Positions 31,785-60,450 of a stretch of 64,000 nucleotides of DNA are shown here, piece after piece. A program made the position numbers and the translations under genes. The DNA lies in NCBI RefSeq assembly GCF_013364155.1, contig NZ_CP054916.1:2910501-2974500 (forward strand), written 5' to 3'. The notes beneath the pieces are model-generated. The model was not told the origin of the DNA and ran no database searches. It saw only the letters and a program-made list of their open reading frames with translations. Each line of letters begins with the position of its first letter. Position 1 is the first letter of the stretch. The DNA comes from Streptomyces sp. NA02950. GTDB taxonomy: Bacteria > Actinomycetota > Actinomycetes > Streptomycetales > Streptomycetaceae.

Positions 31785-31939
31785 CGTGATCGTCCTCCCA
31801 GGTCGGTCACTGCGGCTCGTACCCGAAGAGTGTCAAGAAAAGGTAATACGCATCAAGGCGGTCGCCTCACGGACTGGGGGTTCCCTTCTCGCCAGTACGT
31901 GCGATGATGTCCGCGCAACTCCATACCGGCCGCTTGAAT

Positions 31940-32154
31940 CCGCGCGGGAGAGTCCTTGGTCACACCGGCAGCCGCCGGCGGCCCGGGCGCCGAAGGAGCA
32001 AGTCCTCCCTTGAATCTCTCAGGCCCTATTACCGCGCGGGCGAGGCAGATCTGAAAAGCGAGCCGCTGTGCGTGGCTCCACCCAAGGTGCAAGCCGGACC
32101 CCGTGCGGGCGTCACGGCGAACCTCTCAGGTTCCGATGACAGATGGGGAGGACG
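31940..32154 (+). ncRNA. Tandem glycine riboswitch upstream of gcvT
   Basis: Two glycine aptamers lie in tandem. Aptamer 1 (31940-32039) is closed by CCGCGCGG at both ends and contains GGGAGAGTCC, GCCGAAGGAGCAAGTCC and GAATCTCTCAGGC. Aptamer 2 (about 32040-32154) contains AGATCTGAAAAGCGAGCC, CACCCAAGGTGCAAGCC and GGCGAACCTCTCAGGTTCCG followed by GATGACAGATGGGG. This is the classic arrangement that senses excess glycine and turns on the glycine cleavage genes. The gcvT ATG lies 50 bases downstream. Confidence 0.95.
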
Positions 32155-54700: not shown

Positions 54701-57700
54701 ATGGCACGGAGAGAGGCCGAACGGGACGAGGTGGAGCGGCCGTTCATCGATCAACTCGTCTCGATGGGCTGGACGCACGTACACGGCCCCGATCTCGGCG
54801 CCGAGCGCTCGTACGACGAGGTGTTCCTCACCAAACGCCTCGCCGCCGCCCTCACCCGCGTCAACCGCCTCGCGGAGAACGGCGAGGAGTGGGTGACGGG
54901 GACCCAGGCCGATCGCGCCATCGGCAATCTGCGGCGGGCGGCCAGGAACATCGCCGGGCGCCCCCTGTTAGCCGCCAACCGCGAGACCACCGACCTCCTC
55001 CTCCACGGCGACCTGGTGAAGGGTGACGAAGTCCATCACCACGGCACCGATCAGAAGGTCCACTACATCGACTGGGACATCGAGGACCCCGAGCGTGTGC
55101 AGCGCAACGAGTTCCTCGTCGTGGACCAGTTCCGGGTGCGCGCAGCCGGGGCCGGTAAGGACGGCGAGGTGGTACTCGACCTTGTGCTGTTCATCAACGG
55201 CATCCCGGTCGCCGTCGTTGAGGCCAAGAGTCCCGATGTCAAGGACCCCATCGGAAAGGCGGTCCGCGATCTGCGGGCGTACACCGGCAACCCGCTGACG
55301 GACGACGGCCGGAAGGACAAGGAGAGGCCGCGCGGCGTCCCCGAGCTGTTCGCTTCCGCGCAGCTGCTGATCGCCGCGTGCGGCGAGACCGCCGCGCTCG
55401 GCACGATCTCCGCTGAGGAGGCGCACTACGCACCGTGGCGCAGCGTCACCCCGGACTACCGGGACGACAGGGCGCTGCGCCGTGAGCTGGAGGAGACGCG
55501 CACGGCGGACGGGCGTCGGCTGTTGGAGCCGGGGGCCGAGCTGACCGAGCAGCACAAGCTGATCGCCGTCGTGCTGAAACCGGAGAACCTGCTCAACGTC
55601 ATCCGGCACTACGTCTTCGAACTGCCGCTCAAGGTCAAGGAGGGCGAGCCCGCGAAGACGGTCAAGACGGTCTGCCGCCACCAGCAGTACCGGGCAGTGG
55701 AGAAGATCGTCCGCAAACTGCGGACCGGGCGGTCCCCGCTCGACGCGGGCGCGGAGAACGACGAGCGCGGGGGCGTCATCTGGCACACCCAGGGCTCCGG
55801 CAAGAGTCTGACGATGGCGTTCCTCGCACGGCGGCTGCACTCGAGCCGTGACCCGGAGCTGAACAGGTTCACCCTCCTCGTGGTCACCGACCGCACCCAG
55901 CTCCAGGACCAGCTCTCGGCCGCCGTCCGGGTCAGTGGAAGCGATATCGGGGTGGCGACCTCGCAGGCCGACCTGGAGGGGCGGCTGGAGCGCGCGGGGC
56001 GGGACGGCGGGCGGTCCGTGATCTTCGCGATGATCCAGAAGTACCTGGGGAGCATCCCGGGGCTCGGTGACACCCGGGGCGACGACCGGGCGCTCGCCGA
56101 AGACTTCGAGCAGGCCCGGGAGCGCGTCGCCGCCGGCGCGGATCCGGAAGAGGTGGCGGACCCGAAGCCCGACGAGGCGACGAAGCGGGCCGCGCGCCGT
56201 GAGTTCCGGGAGTGCAGCGACTCACCCCGGGTGCTGGTGCTCGTGGACGAGGCGCACCGGTCGCACACCTCGGTGCTGCACGCGTGTCTGCGCGACGCGC
56301 TGCCCAACGCGGCCCGGATCGGCTTCACCGGCACGCCGATCATGAAGGGCACCCGGAAGACCACCGGGGAGATCTTCGGCCTGGAGCCGGGCGGCGGGTT
56401 CCTCGACGAGTACCGGATGCGCGAGGCCGAGCGGGACAAGGTGGTCGTGCCCATCCGCTACGAGGGCCGTACCGGGCCCGCGCATGTCCGGGACAAGCGG
56501 GAGCTGGACGAGAAGTTCGAGGATCTGATCGCCCCGCTCGACGGCGACGCCCGGCAGCGGATACGCAACCGCTGGGCGCCGCCCACCGGCCGGGACGTCG
56601 CCGAGTCGACGTCCATGATCCGGGCCAAGGCCCGGGACATGCTCCACCACTATGTGCTGGGCGCGATGCAGTTCGGATTCAAGGCCCAAGTCGCCGCGGT
56701 CAGCCGCCGGGCGGCGGTGCTGTACCGGAACGCGCTGCGTGATGTCCGAGCCGAACTGCTAGCCCGGGTGCGCGACGAATTCGGCCCTGAGGCCCAGGAG
56801 GCACTGCGGCAGAAGAGGTCCGAGGAGTACACCCGCGACGAACTGCTGCTGCTGCGGGCCTGGCACTACCAGGAGCTGCTGCGCCGTATCGACTTCGTGC
56901 CGGTGATCTCGGCGGGCGATGAGCAGAAGTCCGGTGTGTGGCGGGAGTGGACGGACAAGGATAAGCAGGACGAGCATGTGGAGCGGTTCCTGGAGCCGTT
57001 CCCCGACCTGCCCCCTGACAACCCGTGGGAGGTCGTCCACGGCCCGGCGGAACACCCCGTACCGGAGGAGGCCCCCGTACCGGCGGGCGGGCTCAATCCG
57101 TGGAGCGCGCCGGGCCCCTCCGCCACCGTCCCCGCGGCGAAGCCCCCGATCGCGTTCCTGATCGTGAAGTCGATGCTACTCACCGGCTTCGACGCGCCAA
57201 TCGAGCAGGTGCTGTACCTGGACCGCCCCATCCAGGACGCGGAGCTGTTGCAGGCGGTGGCCCGGGTCAACCGCCCTTCCCCGGGCAAGGAGGAGGGGCG
57301 CGTCGTGGACTACTACGGCGTGCTGAACAACCTCGCGGTCACCCTCGCCGCGTACCAGGGGGCACCGCCCACGCTCGGCGCGACGCGCCTGTCCGACGGG
57401 CTGCCCGCGCTGGAAGAGGCGGCTGATCTGGTCGAGCTGTTCCTGGTGGGGCTCGGCGTCGAGGACCTGTCCAGCCGGGCCAAGGTGTCCGAGGCCATGC
57501 TGACGCTCCACGACAAGGAGCAGCGAGCCACGTTCGACCGGCTGCTGCGGAAGTTCATGGGCGCGCTGGATCGCGCCCTCCCGCACGAGGACGCGCTGTG
57601 GCAGGTGCCGAACGCCCAGTCCTGGACGCTGCTGCAAAAGCGCGTACGGCGACACTACCGCGACGCCCCGGGCGGCGGCTTCTCGGTGCGCGGCTACGGC

Positions 57701-58360
57701 CGCAAGGTGCGGGCCCTGATCGCCGATCATCTGGAGCTGCCCGAGATCGAACAGGCCATCGCGCCGGTGTCCATCCTCGCGACCGACTTCGACGAGATCG
57801 TGGACCGTATCCCGGACCTGCGCGAGTCCGCCGCCGAGCAGGTGCAGGCGCTGCGCTACCACCTGGAGGAGCGCGCCCAGCGGGACGACCGGCCCGTGTA
57901 CCGGCAGCTGTCGAAGGAGCTGGAGGAGGTGCTGCGCGAGTTCGACGGGCGCTGGGACAAGATCAAGGAACGTATCGGCCCGCTGATCGAGCGGGCGCGC
58001 GACGCCGAGCAGCCCGACTCCGAGGTGGCCGACCTGTCGCCGTTGGAACAGCGGCTCTACGCCCAGTTGGGAGACCGTCTCAGCGACCACCCGTCGTTCG
58101 CTGTGCCGGACACGGCGTTTCTGCGCACCCTGACCCAGGAGGTGTGCGCGGAGATCGTCGACCGGGTGAAGCTCGCGCGGTACACAGGAGACGACGGCGA
58201 TGTCGCCGAGCTGCAGTCCCATATCTGGCAGCGGCTGCGCCGCGCCGGTCTCAGGGCCCAGCAAGGAGGGCTCGGGCCACTGCAGGGCCTGTCGAACTCA
58301 CTGGCGGGCTACGCACAGGATCACCTGGAGAGCTTCCGCGCCGAGGGTCGGGCACAATAG
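54701..58360 (+). CDS. hsdR: Type I restriction enzyme R subunit
   Basis: 1219 residues from ATG at 54701, with GAAGGGG upstream. The PD-ExK nuclease core is LDLVLFINGIPVAVVEAKSP (Asp160, Glu174, Lys176). Superfamily 2 helicase motifs follow: Walker A TQGSGKS (363-369), VVTDRTQLQDQL, DEAH (516-519), FTGTPIMKG, MLLTGFDAPIEQVLYLD and QAVARVNRPSPGKEEGRVVDYYG. A long helical C-terminal region completes the subunit. It cuts unmethylated DNA after translocation, with HsdM and HsdS. It is about 2.1 kb from hsdS, across a palindrome and an XRE module, so it must have its own promoter. Codon 90 (54968-54970) is TTA. Confidence 0.97.
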   Translation: MARREAERDEVERPFIDQLVSMGWTHVHGPDLGAERSYDEVFLTKRLAAALTRVNRLAENGEEWVTGTQADRAIGNLRRAARNIAGRPLLAANRETTDLLLHGDLVKGDEVHHHGTDQKVHYIDWDIEDPERVQRNEFLVVDQFRVRAAGAGKDGEVVLDLVLFINGIPVAVVEAKSPDVKDPIGKAVRDLRAYTGNPLTDDGRKDKERPRGVPELFASAQLLIAACGETAALGTISAEEAHYAPWRSVTPDYRDDRALRRELEETRTADGRRLLEPGAELTEQHKLIAVVLKPENLLNVIRHYVFELPLKVKEGEPAKTVKTVCRHQQYRAVEKIVRKLRTGRSPLDAGAENDERGGVIWHTQGSGKSLTMAFLARRLHSSRDPELNRFTLLVVTDRTQLQDQLSAAVRVSGSDIGVATSQADLEGRLERAGRDGGRSVIFAMIQKYLGSIPGLGDTRGDDRALAEDFEQARERVAAGADPEEVADPKPDEATKRAARREFRECSDSPRVLVLVDEAHRSHTSVLHACLRDALPNAARIGFTGTPIMKGTRKTTGEIFGLEPGGGFLDEYRMREAERDKVVVPIRYEGRTGPAHVRDKRELDEKFEDLIAPLDGDARQRIRNRWAPPTGRDVAESTSMIRAKARDMLHHYVLGAMQFGFKAQVAAVSRRAAVLYRNALRDVRAELLARVRDEFGPEAQEALRQKRSEEYTRDELLLLRAWHYQELLRRIDFVPVISAGDEQKSGVWREWTDKDKQDEHVERFLEPFPDLPPDNPWEVVHGPAEHPVPEEAPVPAGGLNPWSAPGPSATVPAAKPPIAFLIVKSMLLTGFDAPIEQVLYLDRPIQDAELLQAVARVNRPSPGKEEGRVVDYYGVLNNLAVTLAAYQGAPPTLGATRLSDGLPALEEAADLVELFLVGLGVEDLSSRAKVSEAMLTLHDKEQRATFDRLLRKFMGALDRALPHEDALWQVPNAQSWTLLQKRVRRHYRDAPGGGFSVRGYGRKVRALIADHLELPEIEQAIAPVSILATDFDEIVDRIPDLRESAAEQVQALRYHLEERAQRDDRPVYRQLSKELEEVLREFDGRWDKIKERIGPLIERARDAEQPDSEVADLSPLEQRLYAQLGDRLSDHPSFAVPDTAFLRTLTQEVCAEIVDRVKLARYTGDDGDVAELQSHIWQRLRRAGLRAQQGGLGPLQGLSNSLAGYAQDHLESFRAEGRAQ

Positions 58361-58366
58361 GCGGCT

Positions 58367-59137
58367 GTGTCCGGTGCAAGCTTCCCCTCCCCCACCGCCG
58401 GTGGCACCCGTCTCACCGATGGACAGACGCTGTCGGTGGACGGGCATACGCTCGGTGTGCGGGTCAGTGCCCGCCGCGTCCGCCTCGGCCTGACAGTCGA
58501 GCGGGACGGATCACTGGTCCTGCGCGTCCCGCAGGCGTGCGAGGCGAAGCGGGCCGAGGCGTTCATCCGCACCAACCGGGGCTGGATCGACGGCAAACTG
58601 CGGCTGCGCGAGGAGCGGCAGCCGGTGCGCCCCACCCGGGAGCTGGCCGACGGCGAGATCCACCGCTATCTCGGGCGGGACTACCGGCTGCTGTACGTGG
58701 ACGAGCCGGGAGCGCCCGTACGGCTCGTCGCGGGTCGGCTGCGCATGGACCGGGCCGCCGCTGCCGAGCCCGCACGTGCGGGGCGGGCGCTGGCGGACTG
58801 GTACGCCCGGACCGGTCTGCGGTGGGCCGAGGGGCGTCTTCAGCCCTGGGCCGCACGGATGGACGTGACCGATCCGCGGATCGAGGTGCGCGACGTCGGA
58901 CGACGGTGGGGCACCTACCGCTCGGGCCGGATCGCGCTCCACTGGGCCACCTTCCAGCTCCCGTTCCATTTGGTCGACTACGTGATCGCGCACGAGCTGG
59001 CGCATGTCCGGGTCTCCGGGCACGGCCCGGACTACTGGCGGCTGCTGCGCCGGGCGATGCCGGAGTGCGGTCGCTGGAAGACGGAGTTGGACCAGATGGG
59101 CCGCAGGGTGTGGATGGGAGAGGTGGCCCGGCGGTGA
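58367..59137 (+). CDS. YgjP/SprT-like zinc metallopeptidase
   Basis: 256 residues from GTG at 58367, six bases behind hsdR. It is a YgjP-type (DUF45) metal-dependent hydrolase: VRVSARRVRLGLTVERDGSLVLRVP opens the beta domain, RRWGTYRSGRIALHWATFQLP precedes the active site, and IAHELAHVRVSGHGPDYW gives HExxH (209-213) and the third ligand His219. Such genes often travel with hsdR in type I loci, and RNase- or protease-like roles have been proposed; none is proven to my knowledge. Tight coupling to hsdR suggests it works with or regulates the restriction subunit. Confidence 0.9.
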   Translation: MSGASFPSPTAGGTRLTDGQTLSVDGHTLGVRVSARRVRLGLTVERDGSLVLRVPQACEAKRAEAFIRTNRGWIDGKLRLREERQPVRPTRELADGEIHRYLGRDYRLLYVDEPGAPVRLVAGRLRMDRAAAAEPARAGRALADWYARTGLRWAEGRLQPWAARMDVTDPRIEVRDVGRRWGTYRSGRIALHWATFQLPFHLVDYVIAHELAHVRVSGHGPDYWRLLRRAMPECGRWKTELDQMGRRVWMGEVARR

Positions 59138-59212
59138 GCCCGGTGTCCGGCCCGGAGGCCTTCGGACGACCACGTCCCGAATAACGGTTCGAGGGCGCCG
59201 CGTTGCGGCTGC

Positions 59213-59225
59213 TAGCGTGCCGGAC
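59213..59225 (+). promoter_or_regulatory. Possible -10 element for a leaderless mRNA
   Basis: TAGCGT (59213-59218) resembles the Streptomyces -10 consensus and is followed by seven bases and then the GTG start at 59226, the same spacing as at 18652-18665. No good -35 is evident, and no Shine-Dalgarno lies before the GTG. Confidence 0.4.
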
Positions 59226-59957
59226 GTGGCGAAACTCAATCAGATCATCGCAGTGGAGAAGGGCGTCAAGTCCAAGGCCCAGCAGGACCTGACGGCGGCC
59301 CAACGCGGACTGGACAAGCCGGCGCTGCTGGCGGGGATCTCCCGGACGTACCAGCCGAAGGACGAGGAGGGCGAGCAGCTGCCGCCCGAGTCGACGCGGG
59401 TGCAGGTCAAGGCGGAGGACGTACTCCGTGACACCGCTGCCACCCTGACCCGGCTGTTCGACGTCACCGCCACCAAGGACTGGGCCAACTGCGAGGCCCG
59501 CGCGGACATCGAGGTCGAGGGGCGGACGCTGCTGCGCGATGTGCCCGTGTCGTACCTGCTGTTCCTGGAGAAGCAGCTGGCCGACCTCGGGGGCTTCATC
59601 CGGCGGCTGCCGACGCTCGACGGGGCGGAGTTCTGGACGCTGGACCCGTCCACGGACTCCTGGAAGACCGAGGCCGTGCGCACGGTGCGGACCAAGAAGG
59701 TGCCGCGCAACCATGTGAAGGCGGAGGCCACGGAGAAGCACCCGGCTCAGGTCGAGGTGTATTACGAGGACATTCCGGTCGGGTACTGGACGACGGTGAA
59801 GTTCTCCGGGGCCCTCCCCGCCCGCCGGGTCAACGAGCTGCTGAGCCGGGTGGAAAAGCTCCAGCAGGCGGTCAAGTTCGCCCGCGAGGAGGCCAATGGC
59901 GCCGACGTCACCGACCAGCGCGTCGGCGACGTGGTCTTCGGCTACCTCTTCGGGTAG
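59226..59957 (+). CDS. Conserved protein of unknown function (DUF7873-like)
   Basis: 243 residues from GTG at 59226 (VAKLNQIIAVEKGVKSKAQQDLTAAQ). The protein is soluble and charged, with helices at both ends and a beta-rich middle (VSYLLFLEKQLADLGGFIRRLPTLD; VEVYYEDIPVGYWTTVKFSG). I recognise it as a protein that recurs in Streptomyces genomes but know no function. Lysine-rich segments suggest nucleic-acid or protein contacts, though that is weak. It may have its own leaderless promoter and is followed by a hairpin terminator, so it is probably a separate unit from hsdR. Confidence 0.78.
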   Translation: MAKLNQIIAVEKGVKSKAQQDLTAAQRGLDKPALLAGISRTYQPKDEEGEQLPPESTRVQVKAEDVLRDTAATLTRLFDVTATKDWANCEARADIEVEGRTLLRDVPVSYLLFLEKQLADLGGFIRRLPTLDGAEFWTLDPSTDSWKTEAVRTVRTKKVPRNHVKAEATEKHPAQVEVYYEDIPVGYWTTVKFSGALPARRVNELLSRVEKLQQAVKFAREEANGADVTDQRVGDVVFGYLFG

Positions 59958-59997: not shown

Positions 59998-60228
59998 TGC
60001 GCGAGGAGCGCAAGCTGAAACTGAAGCTCGTCGTGATACACGCGGCTGCATGGAGGGGTATTGACCACTCCTCCCCAGCACTCGGTCACGAGAGGGGACG
60101 AGTCTGTCTTCGCAGGGTCGCTGGGTTTAGCCCCCAGTCCTCGACAGGCTTTCCGCCCGTGACACGCGTTCAATCTCAGACTCTTGCTCCAGCCTCAGCA
60201 TTCGCCGCCGATCGCTTGAACGACCCGG
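59998..60228. other. Non-coding stretch upstream of the Y RNA
   Basis: No convincing gene. It has several short hairpins: GGAGGGGT/ACTCCTCC with one mismatch near 60053-60080, and CTGGG/CCCAG at about 60122-60139. The stretch should contain the promoter of the RNA at 60229; no clear -35/-10 pair could be named. A minus-strand open frame here (60127-60312) is an artefact opposite the RNA. Confidence 0.5.
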
Positions 60229-60326
60229 CACGGGCTTGGTCGTCGGATGCCGGTTCGAGTCCGGCCCACCCCGCTCACGGGGCGGTAGTTCAAAGGAAGA
60301 ACACGACGACATCAGACTGACCCGTG
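60229..60326 (+). ncRNA. yrlA: Bacterial Y RNA (YrlA) with tRNA-like domain
   Basis: The segment folds as a circularly permuted tRNA on a stem. In order: outer stem CACGGG (60229-60234); GTCGTCG (60239-60245); a T-arm GCCGG-TTCGAGT-CCGGC (60249-60265); an acceptor-like helix CCACCCC (60266-60272) closed by a GCTCAC loop and GGGGCGG (60279-60285), one A-C mismatch; TA; a D-arm GTTC-AAAGGAA-GAAC (60288-60302); CGACGAC (60304-60310) closing the GTCGTCG stem; and CCCGTG (60321-60326) closing the outer stem. The 3' half of a tRNA thus precedes the 5' half, with no CCA end. That is the described design of bacterial Y RNAs, which bind Ro60. No Ro60 (TROVE) gene is in the window. A true tRNA gene is excluded by the order. 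Confidence 0.75.
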
Positions 60327-60450
60327 ACGAAAAGCTCGGGCGTGCGCAGAAGGCGGCACCACAGGGCCCGGGGGATGGCCAAACCCCCGGGCACCGCTCC
60401 TTGTCCCTCCTCCTTTGTTGCCCGCTCGCTTCAGGGGGAACCCGGGGTGG

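Follow-up and report, generated by a model that had tools for sequence, protein, structure and literature searches.

Genomic evidence for a conserved RNA with permuted tRNA tops that is inherited with DUF7873 and not with Ro60

In the stretch of the Streptomyces sp. NA02950 genome that was analysed here (64,000 nucleotides, hereafter the window, to which all coordinates without a locus name refer), the gene of a DUF7873 protein is followed directly by a conserved RNA that covaries and has permuted tRNA tops, and the comparison of genomes shows this RNA to be inherited along with DUF7873, without such a tie to Ro60. The original prediction had read 60229-60326 as a Y RNA of the YrlA type. A covarying, permuted tRNA-like domain of that type is indeed found there, but the proposed work with Ro60 is not borne out, because the RNA has no significant association with TROVE genes, lacks the word GGWTACTTC and has, by genomic evidence, another putative partner, namely the DUF7873 protein encoded immediately upstream.

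A permuted tRNA-like head at 60229-60326

The region 60229-60326, on the plus strand like all the RNA features described below, consists of a permuted tRNA-like head on two stems, as judged from its fold, its covariation and its alignment to YrlA. The lower stem is CACGGG/CCCGTG (60229-60234 and 60321-60326) and the upper one, in the place of an anticodon arm, is GTCGTCG/CGACGAC (60239-60245 and 60304-60310). Above them come, in this order, a T-arm GCCGG-TTCGAGT-CCGGC (60249-60265), an acceptor-like helix (60266-60285) with CCACCCC as its 3' strand and GGGGCGG as its 5' strand, and a D-arm TAGTTCAAAGGAAGAAC (60286-60302), all three of which agree with the head descriptor given below. The acceptor-like helix has 6 of 7 pairs with one C.A mismatch, and its cap, GCTCAC, replaces the free ends. 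The centroid fold of 60229-60326 reproduces the permuted head on both stems, so the swapped order of the tRNA parts and the two stems that had been named are as originally claimed. The minimum free energy of the region is -42.8 kcal/mol (z -2.46), and 2 of 200 shuffles folded equally well.

A canonical tRNA has a cloverleaf, an anticodon and free acceptor ends, whereas here a loop joins the acceptor strands, and ARAGORN called no tRNA in the 64-kb window. At 60229-60326 no tmRNA model scored over its threshold (cyano_tmRNA reached 16.5 bits and its cut-off is 70) and no Rfam family was found at gathering score. When the threshold was relaxed, the YrlA model (RF02553) aligned over its full length to 60228-60330 with 28.3 bits (E 4e-4), so that the expected likeness to YrlA is there along the whole model but falls below the gathering score of 69. 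A minus-strand open frame of 61 amino acids (60127-60312) overlaps the RNA region.

The whole RNA and the covariation of module 2

A DNA search with 60170-60400 as the query matched 27 of 61 genomes, and 21 loci were aligned with their conserved flanks. In these 21 loci the conserved RNA is about 400 nt long, from about 59998 to 60392, and lies between the DUF7873 gene and downstream sequence that is not conserved. The coordinates first proposed are thus real but incomplete, as they hold only the tip of module 2 and miss a second module and the outer stems. At the 5' side there is a hairpin TGCGC-GAGGA-GCGCA (59998-60012), which is conserved in alignment A2, is folded in many single-sequence minimum free energy structures and is possibly the 5' part of the RNA. 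Module 1 (60014-60199, from alignment and folds) consists of a platform arm (GCTGAAACTGAAGCT... / ...CTCAGACTCTTGCTCCAGCCTCAGC) and a head. In the genome under study this head is divergent and enlarged and does not satisfy the head descriptor, but in 16 of the 21 aligned loci module 1 is, by eye, a second standard permuted head, for example with GGAGG-TTCGAGT-CCTCC, TCCCGGC/GCCGGGA and TGGCCCAACCAGGCAGAGGC, usually on a closing stem of its own. Head 1 is replaced by a plain hairpin in three loci (L003, L006 and L011) and is missing in L013. Module 2 has an outer stem GCCGCC/GGCGGC (60204-60209 and 60352-60357) and a second, inner stem CGCTTGA/TCGGGCG (60213-60219 and 60336-60342), both obtained with RNAalifold and supported by pair counts and compensatory changes. 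The last element, a hairpin GCCCGGGGG / CCCCCGGGC (60366-60392) that is conserved in A2 and recovered in folds, resembles a terminator with a poor U tract and is probably the 3' end of the RNA.

RNAalifold, given 21 sequences, found 39 pairs in module 2, of which 24 had at least one double change. At 91 chosen loci the covariance model R1 returned 98 matches, and these gave an alignment, A9, of 96 distinct rows, about ten of which are partial or come from module 1. Since A9 was fitted to the structure its pairing figures are favoured, and with this in mind 96.7% of its pair cells were paired (99.8% in the T-stem and 99.7% in the acceptor-like helix) compared to 73.1% after shuffling and 38-45% after sliding, and the covariation score was 0.602 as against 0.192. 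Changes on both sides were seen in 35 of the 39 module 2 pairs, and the conservation of paired positions on which the original prediction had staked itself is therefore there. The stem in the place of the anticodon arm lies outside the R1 model and hence its covariation test is free of the fitting bias. In this test the mean length of the GTCGTCG/CGACGAC stem was 5.45 bp when each strand was paired with its own partner, and 3.87 bp, with a maximum of 4.18 in 500 trials, when partners were re-dealt; stems of at least 5 bp occurred at this place in 69 of 91 sequences compared to an average of 34 after re-dealing. On this comparative evidence the structure of module 2 is under selection.

Co-inheritance with DUF7873

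The DUF7873 gene (59217-59957, plus strand) encodes 246 amino acids from a GTG start that was picked by likeness to relatives, and it lies in an open frame of 317 amino acids (59004-59957) that matches Pfam PF25283 (DUF7873) with 2.9e-117 and 391 bits, the cut-off being 27. The predicted structure of the protein had a pLDDT of 91.4 and a pTM of 0.67, and when it was compared with solved structures there was no clear relative that would indicate RNA binding. None of the literature found in our search names DUF7873. Directly 5' of this gene, at 54701-59137, are a Type I restriction HsdR gene and a YgjP-like metallopeptidase gene, and the named neighbours in the window are restriction, peptidase and exporter genes and not phage genes. 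Elsewhere in the window, at 31935-32152, there are tandem glycine riboswitch aptamers (61.8 and 37.3 bits).

When 295 Streptomyces genomes were surveyed, the full-length R1 match was present in 143, PF25283 in 142 and TROVE (PF05731) in 147. The RNA and DUF7873 occurred together in 141 genomes, the RNA only in 2, DUF7873 only in 1 and neither in 151, where it has to be borne in mind that genomes and loci are related by descent and such counts are not independent trials. In all 142 co-located pairs DUF7873 was on the same strand and upstream of the RNA, and the start of the model lay 6-332 nt (with a median of 189) behind the gene. All three of the discordant genomes, and one more that had been scored as having both, turned out to be decayed, with the protein gene lost or cut and the RNA damaged as well. 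One of them (G284) is without DUF7873 and half of module 1, another (G313) is without DUF7873 and the 5' strand of the RNA, the third (G235) retains only the tail of DUF7873 together with a cut module 2 (35.7 bits), and in the genome scored as having both (G207) a fragment of DUF7873 is left and module 1 is lost. This joint decay is a partial answer to the problem of shared ancestry. In one genome the pair is duplicated about 26.6 kb from both contig ends, as in terminal inverted repeats (G249:C1:26602-26780 and 9778533-9778711).

Heads and platform in phages and other genomes

The head descriptor required a 5-bp T-stem, a TTCRA loop, at least 6 of 7 acceptor pairs and a D-arm with GG, and it was applied to 700 nt at each locus. 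Heads were found downstream of DUF7873 in 83 of 84 loci, upstream in 4 of 84 and in 3 of 1680 shuffles. Further scans, of viral and of genome contigs, took the best 80 hits each and are therefore not an estimate of prevalence in nature. In the viral contigs, mostly fresh loci, these best hits had heads downstream in 133 of 143 loci, upstream in 14 and far downstream in 7, compared to 2 of 1430 shuffles; among the best hits in the genome contigs, heads that do not overlap real tRNAs were downstream in 80 of 80 loci and upstream in none of the 80. The genome contigs came from Streptomyces, Actinoplanes, Salinispora, Actinomadura, Nonomuraea, Nocardia, a Lokiarchaeota MAG contig, a Saprospiraceae MAG and others. 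The descriptor found two heads in 51 of the 84 loci and, among the best 80 hits per scan, in 67 of 143 viral and 41 of 80 genome-contig loci. Ten of the 143 viral loci had no descriptor head, most of these having a T-arm-like sequence and at least one being without it, and a few of the heads that were counted are doubtful, for example those of L091 and L332. In an Rfam scan of 20 sampled loci no family apart from tRNA was found at gathering score.

DUF7873 was present in 73 phage records, from Vibrio (29), Gordonia (12), Rhizobium (12), Klebsiella (7), Serratia (6), Arthrobacter (3), Pseudanabaena (2), Rhodococcus (1) and Microcoleus (1) phages. After the phage gene there were 409-1162 nt without an annotated gene in 10 of 15 regions, and small frames or tRNA calls in the others. 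R1 matched after DUF7873 in phages of Gordonia (82.2 and 54.6 bits), Arthrobacter (77.3) and Rhodococcus (72.6) and in Gordonia phage Keelan (43.5), while Pseudanabaena phage Pam2 gave a partial match of 36.5 bits; outside phages it scored 120 in Nonomuraea and 156 in a Streptomyces plasmid. At the DUF7873 loci of Vibrio, Klebsiella and Rhizobium phages R1 gave no match and the heads were seen by the descriptor only; the DUF7873 proteins that these heads accompany are only about 30% identical. In one Rhizobium phage a YrlA match of 35.9 bits follows DUF7873. Some phage records showed other features as well. In Klebsiella phage Centimanus part of the RNA region is annotated as tRNA-Stop(tta), which is probably a mis-call (L097:3513-3596), Gordonia phage Phendrix has a tmRNA (89 bits) that is not in the feature table of its record (L087:563-1091), and in Rhodococcus phage NiceHouse a Band-7 (SPFH) protein gene lies near the pair, after one tRNA (L088:3874-4746).

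The 8-mers most commonly shared after DUF7873 were words of the T-loop and D-loop. Another high-ranking 8-mer was CTTAAACG. It was found in 30 of 155 viral and phage loci, where shuffles would give 0.6, and TAT[CT]GCTC was likewise found in 30 of 155, where 2.4 were expected. The platforms of Streptomyces and actinophages share the motifs TATYGCTCYA and an AUCGAC/CUUAAACG internal loop. In six related cyanophage loci, a small sample with uneven head segments, the median identity was 83% in the platform around TATTGCTCCAA and 86% in the gene but 59% and 64% in the heads. These identities, together with the replacement of heads by hairpins in Streptomyces, suggest that the RNA is a constant platform with exchangeable heads.

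Relation to Ro60 and to the Y RNAs beside it

That no Ro60 gene lies in the 64-kb window, as originally noted, is correct, since the only TROVE match of the genome is 4.47 Mb away from the RNA; this is also the TROVE gene that had been proposed to be looked for elsewhere in the genome. Just upstream of TROVE, this locus (L001) and six others (L080-L085) have two or three small RNA-like elements, and some of these carry permuted heads. The stem word GGWTACTTC was present in 7 of these 7 Ro60-adjacent loci, from which it was also derived and in which it is a putative Ro60 binding site. In the sequence following DUF7873, of which up to 700 nt were taken per locus, it was present in 0 of 332 stretches (296 distinct), and a looser 3' word, GA[TAC]CTC[GT]GG, in 7 of 332. 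When the YrlA model of Rfam was applied, the Y RNAs of L080-L085 scored 31-41 bits and the L001 elements did not match. Ro60-adjacent Y RNAs are thus below the threshold too and the low YrlA score of the window RNA is no argument. In L001 the two Y-RNA-like elements (L001:470-690, before the TROVE gene at L001:721-2331) have a GGTTACTTC stem and fall short of any Rfam model, and the first contains a T-arm-like piece. Many genomes of the genus that lack the full RNA gave weak matches to R1, near E 1e-6, of which six are Y RNAs beside Ro60 and the remaining ones are perhaps tandem tRNAs. In five loci from genomes of the same taxonomic order (L022, L023, L025, L026 and L028) a permuted head sits on a GGWTACTTC stem with no Ro60 match within about 3 kb, and two viral contigs (L242 and L266) have both a Ro60-like match and DUF7873.

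The RNA could in principle be a Y RNA that acts in trans by binding the distant Ro60 and recruiting RNA-processing enzymes to it. The full-length YrlA alignment, the TROVE gene in the same genome and the fact that Ro60-adjacent Y RNAs with similar heads also score below threshold are compatible with this. However, among the 295 Streptomyces genomes the RNA and TROVE occurred together in 78, the RNA only in 65, TROVE only in 69 and neither in 83, which is not a significant association (Fisher p 0.13). A full-length Streptomyces Ro60 query found no match in 61 of the 65 genomes that have the RNA and no TROVE, and short partial matches in the other 4. There was likewise no TROVE match in 13 of 15 DUF7873 phages, the remaining two being Rhizobium phages. 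Taken with the distribution of GGWTACTTC, this makes a Y RNA working in trans very improbable.

Proposed mechanism and alternatives

What we consider probable is a ribonucleoprotein that needs no Ro60, made of DUF7873 and the YrlA-like RNA, in which the platform would bind the protein and the heads would recruit tRNA-handling enzymes or act as decoys for them. In this proposal the protein comes from the DUF7873 gene and its RNA partner from the sequence directly 3' of that gene, and the RNA would be transcribed separately and fold into one or two long arms. The lower parts of the arms, with TATYGCTCYA and the AUCGAC/CUUAAACG loop, most likely bind DUF7873, a proposal that rests on conservation in part of the family, as most of the viral and phage loci are without the platform motifs. 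The tips of the arms are permuted tRNA tops without an anticodon and, because a loop joins the acceptor strands, without a CCA end. Such heads would offer a tRNA elbow and an acceptor helix but could be neither charged nor decoded, and most likely they recruit or tie up enzymes that recognise the tRNA elbow. As the pair is common in phages, often amid tRNA genes, and patchy in actinobacterial chromosomes, its setting is likely to be phage-host conflict or quality control around tRNA.

A different division of labour is that of a pure decoy, where the heads would do no more than mop up effectors, from host defence or from rival phages, that cut or modify tRNA, and DUF7873 would only stabilise the RNA. 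The many phages with the pair, often amid tRNA genes, fit this, and so do heads that vary more than the platform in the six related loci, as expected for targets in an arms race. Anticodon loops are the usual target of anticodon nucleases, however, and the heads have none, and the named neighbours in the window are not phage genes; we regard a pure decoy as rather unlikely. It is more doubtful still that there is no separate RNA and that the heads are a 3' untranslated element on which DUF7873 or an RNase, e.g. RNase P, acts to regulate or process its own mRNA. The position of the RNA in Streptomyces, on the same strand and shortly after the gene, would suit such an element, but about 400 nt with elaborate, covarying and exchangeable heads is, in our judgement, much for an autoregulatory site. 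In Microcoleus phage My-WqHQDG a HEARO RNA (129 bits) and a frame of 425 amino acids lie between DUF7873 and a 27-bit R1 match (L091:3441-4952), which also speaks against this element, neither point being decisive. Finally, ordinary tRNA genes next to each other might be misread as a permuted head, since the phage loci lie amid tRNA genes and, among the best 80 hits per scan, the 143 viral loci held a real tRNA downstream in 45 and upstream in 41, and unfiltered heads upstream in 14. Only 9 of 202 downstream heads overlapped an ARAGORN tRNA, though, and the window has no tRNA. In the same best hits, tRNA-free heads were found downstream in 132 of 143 viral loci and upstream in 0 of 143, which refutes this artefact and leaves chance with a negligible probability.

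Comparison with known systems and implications

YrlA (RF02553), which Chen et al. reportedly described in 2014 as a tRNA-like bacterial Y RNA, has the same order of T-arm, capped acceptor helix and D-arm on a long stem, and its model aligns to the window RNA in full. The window RNA differs in its score, which is well below gathering, in its family often having two heads per RNA, in following DUF7873 and not being near Ro60, and in lacking the GGWTACTTC stem of the genus. The Ro60-adjacent Streptomyces Y RNAs (L080-L085 and L001) also come as tandem elements and in some cases have permuted heads, but these are separate small elements just upstream of TROVE whose stems carry GGWTACTTC and GATCTCGGG-like words, whereas on the DUF7873 side there is one RNA after the gene. 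The Ro60 (TROVE, PF05731) ribonucleoprotein resembles the pair in having a protein gene beside an RNA with a tRNA-like domain and in occurring in phages, but DUF7873 is a separate Pfam family without significant association with TROVE. A permuted order of tRNA parts is also known from tmRNA and from split or permuted tRNA genes; unlike these, the window RNA has no anticodon, and no mRNA-like part was seen.

The accepted view of bacterial Y RNAs is that they are partners of Ro60, and the domains of YrlA are recognised by tRNA enzymes. Passages of one report describe Y RNAs as tethering Ro60 to PNPase (PMC12282133), and passages of another report that a few jumbo phages, a small subset, have ROT/TROVE, whose partner in cellular organisms is tRNA-like (PMC7824862). 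Here the tRNA-mimic design of Y RNAs is tied by co-inheritance and joint decay to DUF7873, in chromosomes and in many phages. We lean, by a little, towards a broader reading in which DUF7873 would define a second, Ro60-independent class of ribonucleoprotein, a platform RNA with exchangeable cassettes of tRNA tops that phages would have spread, that about half of the Streptomyces species in the sample would have domesticated and that may reprogram or protect the tRNA machinery. The RNA explains why 10 of the 15 phage regions have a stretch without an annotated gene behind DUF7873. This family of unknown function gains a testable biochemical role, and the pair is a natural system for asking what loop-capped tRNA tops recruit or block.
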